Shown piece by piece: positions 25,529 through 29,662 of a stretch of 29,662 nt of DNA. The DNA is from a virus. Numbering within the stretch: the stretch's first letter is position 1; every line of letters begins with the position of its first letter. The stretch is taken from positions 1 through 29,662 of the IMG/VR virus record IMGVR_UViG_3300023179_000374. One strand, given 5' to 3'. The notes beneath the pieces are model-generated. The model ran no database searches. It worked only from the letters and a program-made list of their open reading frames with translations, and was not told the origin of the DNA. The position numbers were made by a program, and so were the translations under genes.

Positions 25529-25791
25529 AAAGGTAGTTTGCCCCGTTTCTTTTTCAAATAATTTTGTTCCTCAGCTTCTAATTGAATCTTTTCCTTTAAA
25601 GTGCTATTTATTAGTTTAGCAATAGATTCAATATCGATATCAATTTCGCTACAATATTGTATAACTGCATCCATATATCCTATTTTTTCATTTTGTACTT
25701 TTTCTTCTATGTATAAAGAAAATTCATTAGGAGATCTAAATCTTTTAGTTATAATTATGGAATCAGTTAATTCTTTTTGAAGATCATTCAT
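25525..25791 (-). CDS. 33: Late transcription coactivator gp33
   Basis: T4 gp33 (112 aa) bridges RNA polymerase and the sliding clamp to activate late promoters. This 88-aa protein has the marine T4-like gp33 pattern: SIIITKRFRSPNEFSLYIEE, KIGYMDAVIQYCSEIDIDIE, SIAKLINSTLKEKIQLEAEE and a basic NYLKKKRGKLPL tail. A further ATG at 25821 would give 98 aa; I prefer 25791, which overlaps the bilin reductase stop by 8 nt, as at other junctions here. It precedes gp59 and gp32 as a replication/late transcription cluster, and its presence fits the TATAAATA boxes seen in this window. Confidence 0.85.
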   Translation of the reverse strand: MNDLQKELTDSIIITKRFRSPNEFSLYIEEKVQNEKIGYMDAVIQYCSEIDIDIESIAKLINSTLKEKIQLEAEEQNYLKKKRGKLPL

Positions 25792-26473
25792 TACTTTGGT
25801 GTCTTTCTGGAAATAAAACATTGTCCATATATTCTTGAAATAAATTTTTATCTAATCCTAAACTATGCATCATTTGCGATGTTCTAGGATTTTGTTTTTG
25901 ATAATAACAATAACGATTTTGATATACTGAAAAATCTTTATTCTTATTTTTAGTTATTCCAACATTAGTTAAATAATAATTAAGTGAATTATAATATATT
26001 TTGGAAGCCAAATCAAATTCTTTTTTATCCAAATTGCCGGCTGCAATCATATTACTAGAAAAAATTTGATTTGCCCATTCGGGCAATTCTCTTTTTTTAT
26101 TTGGAAGGTAAGAACTTGATATTTCTTTGAAACTATTTAGCATAAAGTGATCATTGGATTCCACCTCAGAATAATCATGAAACATGCCTGTAATTTTTTC
26201 TCTACCGCATACTATATCAAAACCAAATATTGGAGAATTATCATTGTAGTGAGGAAAAATGCAAAAATGCATGATCCAAATTTTTTTTAATTCTCTGGCA
26301 TCTATAATTTCTAGATGTGCTCTACGAAATTTATCATTTTTAAATATATAGTTTTCCCATTTAAAATTATATTCGGCATGCTCAAAATTAAAAGGAATAA
26401 AATTAGAACATCTTAATAGTTTTCCTAAAGTAAAACAAGCTAAATTTTCGGCATTATCCCAAATGTTATCCAT
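25784..26473 (-). CDS. Ferredoxin-dependent bilin reductase, PcyX/PebS/PcyA-type (229 aa)
   Basis: The enzyme family reduces biliverdin IXalpha to phycobilins using ferredoxin. Family marks are RRAHLEIIDA (51-60), IWIMHFCIFPHYNDNSPIFG (65-84) with His69, FGFDIVCGREKITGMFHDYS (83-102) with Asp86 as candidate catalytic acid, and a C-terminal YQNRYCYYQKQNPRTSQMM with LGLDKNLFQEYMDNVLFP. The length is like phage reductases such as PebS and PcyX. Of these, PcyX was reported from uncultured marine phages together with heme oxygenase and makes phycoerythrobilin; the pairing here suggests that type. I cannot settle product specificity. It overlaps heme oxygenase by 8 nt, so the two enzymes are probably made together. 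Confidence 0.88.
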   Translation of the reverse strand: MDNIWDNAENLACFTLGKLLRCSNFIPFNFEHAEYNFKWENYIFKNDKFRRAHLEIIDARELKKIWIMHFCIFPHYNDNSPIFGFDIVCGREKITGMFHDYSEVESNDHFMLNSFKEISSSYLPNKKRELPEWANQIFSSNMIAAGNLDKKEFDLASKIYYNSLNYYLTNVGITKNKNKDFSVYQNRYCYYQKQNPRTSQMMHSLGLDKNLFQEYMDNVLFPERHQSNE

Positions 26474-27008
26474 ATTCTTTTATCAATTCTATATTAAAAT
26501 CAAAGGCAATATTTGCTTCTACAGTCATGGATATATCTATTCTTTTTCTAACCTCAGTTATTAAACCTATCATATTATCAAACTTATACATTAATCCTTT
26601 GCCAGGAACAAGTTTAGCTAATTGTTGTCCGCCAAATAAATCTCCCATATGTCTAACATAAACATGAGCCATTAATCTTTGGCGTCTATTTTCTAAATCA
26701 TCATAGAAAATATCATCTAAATAACTTAAATACTTATTTGTAGATTTTTTAATGTTTATACTATAATTTTTACCAGCCAAATTAATAAAATCTGTTCTTA
26801 CCTTGGGAGCTCTTTTTAAATCCTCAATACCTTTAAATAATTCTAATTCGCTTCCATGATTTTCTAAAGTAAAGTAAATAAAATGTAATTGATACAAATA
26901 ATCGGTATATTTAAATTTATCTACTTCACCTTTAAAAATAGTTTGTATAAAAGGCAAAGATTCGGCTATTCTATGTTTTTCTGCAGTTGTTTGTTTTAAT
27001 GTAGTCAT
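26466..27008 (-). CDS. ho1: Heme oxygenase (biliverdin-producing), HO1-type
   Basis: It should open heme to biliverdin, releasing iron and CO, with electrons from ferredoxin. At 180 aa it is shorter than cyanobacterial HO1 (about 240 aa), as phage versions tend to be. TTAEKHRIAESLPF contains the proximal heme ligand, His12. YLYQLHFIYFTLEN (37-50) is helical core, and AHVYVRHMGDLFGGQQLAKL (114-133) is the distal helix signature (GDLxGGQ). It is linked to the bilin reductase downstream (8-nt overlap) and to the three-TM gene upstream (4-nt ATGA overlap). Whether the aim is pigment, iron release or a signalling bilin cannot be told here. Confidence 0.94.
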   Translation of the reverse strand: MTTLKQTTAEKHRIAESLPFIQTIFKGEVDKFKYTDYLYQLHFIYFTLENHGSELELFKGIEDLKRAPKVRTDFINLAGKNYSINIKKSTNKYLSYLDDIFYDDLENRRQRLMAHVYVRHMGDLFGGQQLAKLVPGKGLMYKFDNMIGLITEVRKRIDISMTVEANIAFDFNIELIKEYG

Positions 27009-28209: not shown

Positions 28210-29388
28210 TTATTTATATTTCAAAATTAGATTTTTCATAGTTTCATTAAGTTTAAAAGTATCCAAATGTTGTTTAAAACTTCTAAATGTCCAAGTACCT
28301 ATTTCACTTGTTTCATTATTTAAATCATAATTAAAATCATTACTTATACATAGTTTCATCATTTCAGAAAATAAATTATTTTTTTTAAAATCACATTCAA
28401 TTTTATTTTTTGCCAATCCTTTGGCATATTCCCAAAAATCATTTTTATATACAGATCCCGATAAATAATGCAGCGATATCATGGATCCTATATTTTCAAT
28501 ATAATTACTATAATACTGATTAGCAAAACTTATATCTATTTTTTTCATAAAAAATAAATCTATAGTAATTCTATTAATTATATCAGAAGTAGATGTAGAT
28601 GTTGCTTCTAAAGGTTCTAAAAAGAAAGAAGCATTACCATTATAAATTATATTATCTTTAAAATTAATTTTTCTACTATAGTTATAAAATTTTAGACTTC
28701 TTACTAACTTAGGTTTTAAATCGAATTCATCAAGTATTGATTGTACATCTTCCTTGATATCATCTTCTGTACAAAAATCACTATTGAATACATATCCTAT
28801 AGCACATCTATTTTTTAAAGGAATACCAAACACCCATCCATATTTTTTAGCAAAAGTTAATGAGTATAAAAATTTGGGCAAATCCCATGGACACTGAAAA
28901 ACCATAGCTGAATTTACAGGAATATAATTTTTATAATCAAAATCGTCAGTTAATTTTGCAGGAGAACCAGTACATACCATAATAATATCTGAATCTATAT
29001 TATTTGGATCACTATAATTAGTTTCTTTACAAGTGACTCTTGAATTGTTTTCTAATAACTTGAATACATAATCTTGAAATTCTATAGCATTAAAATGCAC
29101 TCCGTGATTGCCGGCAGGAAAGCAATGAAAAAATTCCTCACCTTCTCCCCAATTCCTTTTCCAAATACCCAATTTTGGGGTTGAATGAATTTTATCAAAT
29201 GAAGAACTATCAAAATTAAGATTTTCATACAAAGAAATTGGCAAAGCTAAGTTGGTGCCTTCACCAACAGGGGTGGGGCTAATGTTTGGATCATAAATCC
29301 ATTCTATTTCCCAGTTAGTCCATCTTAAAAAATGAGCAACAGCCAAGCATCCGACTGTTCCTCTCCCCACTATACATATTTTTTTCAT
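28210..29388 (-). CDS. Flavin-dependent halogenase (tryptophan halogenase family, 392 aa)
   Basis: FAD-dependent halogenases use FADH2, oxygen and halide to halogenate electron-rich substrates. Visible marks are the Rossmann start MKKICIVGRGTVGCLAVAHF with GxGxxG at 8-13, GEGT (42-45), KLGIWKRNW with Lys72 at the place of the catalytic Lys (Lys79 in PrnA), GWVFGIP (184-190) for the GWxWxIP motif with Phe in place of the second Trp, and LEPLEATSTSTSD with Glu261 matching the active-site Glu of the PLEST motif. It is shorter than PrnA (about 540 aa). A marine cyanophage halogenase (VirX1) is known and prefers iodide; that is the closest precedent I know. The ATG at 29388 puts the Rossmann fold at residue 3; an upstream TTG at 29433 is rejected. 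Confidence 0.88.
   Translation of the reverse strand: MKKICIVGRGTVGCLAVAHFLRWTNWEIEWIYDPNISPTPVGEGTNLALPISLYENLNFDSSSFDKIHSTPKLGIWKRNWGEGEEFFHCFPAGNHGVHFNAIEFQDYVFKLLENNSRVTCKETNYSDPNNIDSDIIMVCTGSPAKLTDDFDYKNYIPVNSAMVFQCPWDLPKFLYSLTFAKKYGWVFGIPLKNRCAIGYVFNSDFCTEDDIKEDVQSILDEFDLKPKLVRSLKFYNYSRKINFKDNIIYNGNASFFLEPLEATSTSTSDIINRITIDLFFMKKIDISFANQYYSNYIENIGSMISLHYLSGSVYKNDFWEYAKGLAKNKIECDFKKNNLFSEMMKLCISNDFNYDLNNETSEIGTWTFRSFKQHLDTFKLNETMKNLILKYK
28211..28218 (-). promoter_or_regulatory. T4-type late promoter box
   Basis: The minus strand carries an exact TATAAATA spanning the last codons and stop of the halogenase gene, 44 nt before the ATG of the 89-aa gene at 28167. Distance and the 42-nt intergenic gap downstream fit a late promoter driving the 89-aa gene and possibly the endolysin-heme oxygenase-gp33 run. 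Confidence 0.55.
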
Positions 29389-29429
29389 TTCAATTAATTG
29401 CCCAATTAGATTGACCTGATAAAATCTTT

Positions 29430-29612
29430 CCAACCACTTCTGTTACCGAGCAGGTTGGGACCTTCTCTGAGTCTAAGATTAACCTATGCGGCTAAACGAA
29501 CCTCAAACGCGTTATCATTCGCTGCGTCTATTTAGTTTGCTAGGATTACGTCCTTCGCCTATCGAGTTGTCCACTTACATACTATTTGCTCCGTCGAAAC
29601 CATGTCTGGCCC
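29430..29612 (-). ncRNA. ssrA: tmRNA (ssrA), coding segment; acceptor half not in the window
   Basis: The minus strand carries GGGCCAGACATGGTTTCGACGG (29612-29591, in two parts GGGCCAG and GGTTTCGACGG), the 5' acceptor strand and D-arm hallmark of tmRNA. Downstream, AAATAGAC precedes resume codon GCA at 29525, as UAGUC precedes GCA in E. coli. The tag frame 29525-29484 reads AANDNAFEVRLAA then TAG, beginning with AND-like residues and ending LAA, the ClpXP-type end. TAATCCTA (29548-29541) pairs with TAGGTTA (29486-29480, one bulge) around the tag, as in helix P5. No T-arm or CTGGCCC-CCA end occurs before the halogenase start. This suggests the two-piece permuted alphaproteobacterial form, with its acceptor piece beyond the right edge. 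The 3' limit is a guess at a CCAACC/GGTTGG stem. Confidence 0.85.
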
Positions 29613-29631
29613 ATTAAAATAAACTCTTCAG

Positions 29632-29662
29632 TATACCTATAATAATTCCTATTCCAGGTATA
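29632..29662. repeat. Inverted repeat at the right edge, upstream of the tmRNA segment
   Basis: TATACCT (29632-29638) and AGGTATA (29656-29662) are exact 7-nt inverted arms around a 17-nt AT-rich loop. In a permuted tmRNA gene this would fall in the intervening sequence between acceptor and coding pieces, where processing occurs; that is inference. The repeat may continue beyond the window. Confidence 0.5.

Follow-up and report, generated by a model that had tools for sequence, protein, structure and literature searches.

Two-piece tmRNAs in marine phages have already been published, including that of the Methylophilales phage Melnitz. Among 133 unique phage tmRNA structures, 53 are two-piece, and 50 of those 53 come from marine or aquatic phages (PMC9004378). 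Host-protein recycling has been proposed for the Melnitz tmRNA (PMC9004378). For permuted genes with additional content in the intervening sequence, the precedents found in print are a repetitive element and a tRNA gene (PMC11915505). The DNA analyzed here (the window) makes up an entire IMG/VR record, 29,662 bases long, with no sequence further right. We interpret its right end as the coding half of a permuted beta-class tmRNA gene, carried by a T4-like phage akin to the Melnitz/Mosig/HTVC008M group, with the contig end cutting the intervening segment (probability about 0.9).

Read on the minus strand, the right-most 263 bases of the window correspond to a tmRNA coding half preceded by intervening sequence. 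GGGCCAG is followed by ACATGGTTTCGACGG, the PK1 region and AATAGAC-GCA, in that order. The visible 3' part of the intervening segment (29613–29662, minus) is identical to that of a related viral locus, L005, and has one difference from L016 and L022. The coding piece (about 29612–29420, minus) begins with the 5' acceptor strand of the tRNA-like domain, GGGCCAG (29606–29612, minus), which would pair with CTGGTCC of the L005 and L016 acceptor piece. The 5' tRNA-like domain, ACATGGTTTCGACGGAGCAAATA (29583–29605, minus), was placed by the RF04321 alignment and is invariant through GACGG in eight phage loci; ATGGTTTCGACGG lies at 29603–29591 (minus). Homology with L005 and L016 suggests that the P2 5' strand and the PK1 region occupy 29533–29582 (minus), up to the resume context. 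The tag frame runs from the resume codon GCA (29525–29523) to a TAG stop (29484–29525, minus), and its 13 codons translate as AANDNAFEVRLAA. This frame is intact in the window, and its position agrees with the tag end in RF04321. In the minimum-energy fold, a P5-like helix may form around the tag end (29471–29508, minus), as may a terminal hairpin, CCAACC...GGTTGG, close to where the coding piece finishes on its 3' side (29430–29458, minus), at the same place as a hairpin in relatives. Both are suggestive only, and the overall fold does not stand out from shuffles in stability (z −1.28). Thus the elements listed in an earlier sequence-only reading, namely the hallmark TGGTTTCGACGG, a TAGAC-GCA resume context, a 13-residue tag ending in LAA with a stop, and a P5-like helix, were all found on the minus strand at the right end of the window.

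The ATG of a halogenase-like gene lies 95 bases past the tag stop. As that reading had also claimed, the 3' half is absent before the halogenase: no T-arm or CCA was found between the tag and this gene on the minus strand of the window. A one-piece tmRNA was rejected, since the tag is not followed by these elements and the relatives are all permuted.

Pattern scans of viral contigs detected the same 5' piece at 26 loci. The last 140 nt of the window, including 50 bases of the intervening segment, are 96–98% identical to L005, L016 and L022, which excludes chance. L005 and L016 have a complete acceptor piece, GCGGACGCGGGTTCGACTCCCGCCTGGTCCACCA, whose final CTGGTCCACCA is separated from the downstream GGGCCAG by 109 nt; in L022 only the 3' end of this piece is present, as the contig begins within it. 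ARAGORN calls the L005 and L016 tmRNA genes permuted. Homology to these complete genes indicates that the window gene is permuted as well. The acceptor piece, with its T-arm and CCA, is seen in close relatives only; it lies outside the contig, whose end falls within the intervening segment. By comparison with L005 and L016, it would be found just beyond the right end of the window, 109 nt from the coding piece and inside the 300 nt that had been predicted. The expected acceptor partner, CTGGCCC, was not the one found. The relatives have CTGGTCC, which forms seven pairs with GGGCCAG, including G3-U70 (CTGGCCC would be without G3-U70). G3 is present in the window, and U70 is seen in the relatives only. 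The G3-U70 pair is the identity element for alanyl-tRNA synthetase.

Identity of the rest of the window to L005, L016 and L022 is about 70–74%, and the high identity stops exactly at the tag. This pattern could arise from an assembly chimera, in which a co-occurring phage contributed the last 140 nt and the join was made at shared tmRNA sequence near 29523. However, near-identical 5' pieces with different tags are also found in other contigs from other samples, making a chimera unlikely. Furthermore, the tag and 3' domain are on the window's own side of such a join, so a tmRNA would be present regardless.

For the 3' part of the coding piece, none of the sequences compared is a close relative. 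Together with the visibility of only half a gene, in a segment that stops at the contig end, this is consistent with a broken remnant that kept the coding half, lost the acceptor half and makes no working tmRNA. We consider a remnant very unlikely, given that the gene retains an intact tag frame, resume codon, acceptor strand and 5' domain, all near-identical to those of relatives with complete genes, and that the intervening segment is intact in its visible part.

A covariance-model search, which the sequence-only reading had proposed, gave a tmRNA-class match. When positions 29300–29662 were scanned alone, RF04321 (tmRNA_permuted) matched with 45.2 bits (E 5.5e-8, 5' end cut), just below its gathering score of 47, and RF01850 (beta_tmRNA) with 16.2 bits (E 0.0034, 5' end cut; cut-off 84). 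Complete relatives score 127–136 bits with RF04321. As a yardstick, L005 was cut at the homologous position; its score fell from 135.8 to 69 bits with RF04321 and from 110.6 to 63.7 bits with RF01850, so a low score is expected for half a gene. Truncation at the contig end explains why ARAGORN called no tmRNA in the window and why an Rfam scan of the whole window found none at gathering thresholds. The RF04321 match and the homology to L005, L016 and L022 therefore support the earlier claim of a phage-encoded, permuted tmRNA.

The class had been given as alphaproteobacterial, with SAR11 as the suggested host. Alphaproteobacterial tmRNA tags begin AANDN, as does the window tag, and the related phages Melnitz and Mosig have alpha-class tmRNAs. 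However, the alpha model (RF01849, cut-off 50) had no match in the window, which is its own whole record, nor in the complete relatives that match the beta model, while the positive controls (Caulobacter, Melnitz with 106.7 bits and Mosig with 67.6) all matched. Complete relatives that reach the class cut-off match beta_tmRNA, which is their best match in the clan: L020 scores 116.4 bits, L005 110.6, L019 107.3, L003 95.3 and L016 87, and L008, L009, L011 and L012 score 98.2 each (cut-off 84). On these class-model scores of the relatives, the window tmRNA is most likely of the beta class, and a SAR11-type permuted tmRNA is highly improbable. Since the class evidence is for beta and not alpha, a SAR11 host is not implied, and that argument falls. 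The 22-mer GGGCCAGACATGGTTTCGACGG of the phage 5' piece occurs in 0 of 84,980 species genomes, and the acceptor pattern is absent from the same genomes, so this search pointed to no donor or host. The isolates closest in gp6 are Melnitz (host OM43) and Mosig and HTVC008M (host SAR11), with an identity of only 37–40%. When the window piece was compared with phage records by blastn, the sole match was a weak one, to Synechococcus phage BUCT-ZZ01 (74% over 33%).

Near-identical 5' pieces are followed by different tags: ANDDYFSQDFKLAA in L016, ANDDYFYQDLKLAA in L003 and AANDNAFEVRLAA in the window. In L005 the tag is ANDEVYALAA by resume position; the start called by ARAGORN lies further upstream. 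L003 and L007 share a tag and have different PK1 regions. The exact tag of the window, back-translated, was not found in viral contigs. One and the same acceptor strand is combined with either of two T-arm versions, CGCGGGTTCGACTCCCGC and CGGGGCTTCGATGCCCC (L006, L019–L021), so that the T-arm is another swapped module.

The intervening segment is of at least seven unrelated sequences among the loci and is swappable between phages. In L005 and L016, the full segment is 109 nt long and lies between CCA and GGGCCAG. In six of the seven types tested, a closing stem of 9–15 pairs (composition-shuffle P 0.003 or less) starts right after CCA and leaves exactly four bases between its end and the 5' acceptor strand; in the seventh type (L019–L021), the stem has only 5 pairs (P about 0.12). 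The stem of L005, AAATAAACTTT/AGAGTTTATTT, has 11 pairs (shuffle P 0.0026). Its 3' arm, AGAGTTTATTT, is present in the window (29617–29627, minus); the partner AAATAAACTTT follows CCA directly in L005 and L016, so that the stem joining the two ends of the segment is seen in close relatives only. Mosig has a similar arrangement, TAAACACAT...ATGTGTTTA, as judged by eye. We infer that the closing stem would join the two pieces in the precursor. A 74-nt segment with a 15-pair closing stem occurs in L003–L012, L014–L018, L023, L024 and L026; it is identical among them (one base different in L014) though PK1 and tags vary.

Several types of intervening segment contain small open reading frames. Melnitz and its relatives (L027, MZ577097.1, 46077–46218; also L031, L032 and L034–L041) have a frame, MFKWLSKTRLVVITRDYF..., preceded by a ribosome-site-like GGAGAAG. 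Six distinct sequences keep this frame open, including two with a 24-base insertion that preserves the phase; its dN/dS is 0.2–0.35 (Melnitz compared to the others). As the sequences are few and closely related, these values are suggestive of a protein-coding frame. The Melnitz-type frame continues without a phase change through the RNase P site into the tRNA-like domain, so cleavage would deprive it of a stop codon. L033 has a Melnitz-type tmRNA with a 76-base segment instead. Unrelated frames of 61 aa in L025 (1611–1836) and 45 aa in the L002 intervening segment were also observed. Comparison of intervening-segment proteins with PHROGs, and of two of them with phage records (tblastn), gave no convincing match.

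The window type has a possible hydrophobic frame of 32 codons, starting with TTG without a clear ribosome site, ending in ...IIPGIGIIIGILKSLF and stopping at TAA. Its copies differ by one synonymous change only; with this single change and no clear ribosome site, coding is unproven. It is conceivable, though on balance doubtful, that the intervening segment is a stem-held cargo pocket of small protein genes swapped between phages. The window type would then encode a 32-aa membrane peptide, and processing of the Melnitz type would leave a stop-less message that only trans-translation clears. If the segments do code, a processed non-coding RNA gene would double as a carrier of small phage proteins. 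No paper on reading frames in intervening segments was found in a literature search whose coverage did not extend to key older papers. These frames are a more novel lead than the tmRNA half itself.

The window has a T4-like setting, with homologues of gp32, gp5, gp6, gp33 and gp59. L005, L016, Melnitz and Mosig share the gene order PD-(D/E)XK nuclease, tmRNA, then gp33 and gp59; in the window, the gp33 and gp59 homologues are likewise downstream of the tmRNA. This slot holds an alpha-class tmRNA in Melnitz and Mosig and a beta-class tmRNA in the L005/L016 group, which points to an exchange of lineages there. Two tmRNA lineages in one slot suggest replacement or independent recruitment, and favour repeated recruitment over chance capture.

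Between the tmRNA and gp33/gp59, the window carries a cassette of genes for a halogenase, an 89-aa protein, a cell-wall hydrolase, a 106-aa protein, a heme oxygenase and a bilin reductase. The halogenase is a short protein of 392 aa resembling tryptophan halogenases (Pfam PF04820; 28210–29388, minus), encoded between the tmRNA and the 89-aa gene. Its nearest phage match is in cyanophage S-RIM4 (41.6%), and no relatives were found in viral contigs. The heme oxygenase and ferredoxin-dependent bilin reductase genes lie at 25784–27008 (minus), and the nearest isolate match of the bilin reductase is in Pelagibacter phage Mosig (38%).

A single transcript would fold via the closing stem. By analogy with established tmRNA biology, RNase P would cut before GGGCCAG and tRNA 3' processing would expose CCA, so that two RNAs held together by base pairing result. 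The two-piece tmRNA would be charged by host alanyl-tRNA synthetase and, with host SmpB, would rescue ribosomes on broken mRNA and add the tag AANDNAFEVRLAA to stalled products for proteolysis. Host SmpB would be needed, as a search of nine related phage records, among them two complete genomes, detected no smpB, while its control was positive in 10 of 14 reference genomes. Ribosomes would stay free during mRNA degradation in infection, and the simplest benefit to the phage would be the rescue of ribosomes while mRNA decays.

Compared to the permuted tmRNAs described by RF04321 and RF01850, the locus has the same hallmark sequences, resume context and tag, and its relatives have the same gene order (acceptor, intervening, coding). 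It differs in the acceptor strand GGGCCAG and the 22-mer noted above, and the window copy is only a half. L005 (IMGVR_UViG_3300023179_000601) is near-identical in the intervening segment and the first 90 nt of the coding piece and has the same downstream genes, but has a different tag and no halogenase between the tmRNA and the homologue of the 89-aa gene. The two-piece ssrA genes of Melnitz and Mosig are likewise phage-encoded, permuted and located in the slot between the PD-(D/E)XK nuclease and gp33-gp59. In contrast, they are of the alpha class and have the tags ANDNYVPVDYALAA (Melnitz) and GEDNFALAA (Mosig), and Melnitz has a glutamine riboswitch just downstream of its tmRNA, whereas the Rfam scan of the window found none. 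The window tmRNA therefore adds to the phage two-piece tmRNAs that are already known, with a corrected class, and brings a probable beta-class lineage to them.
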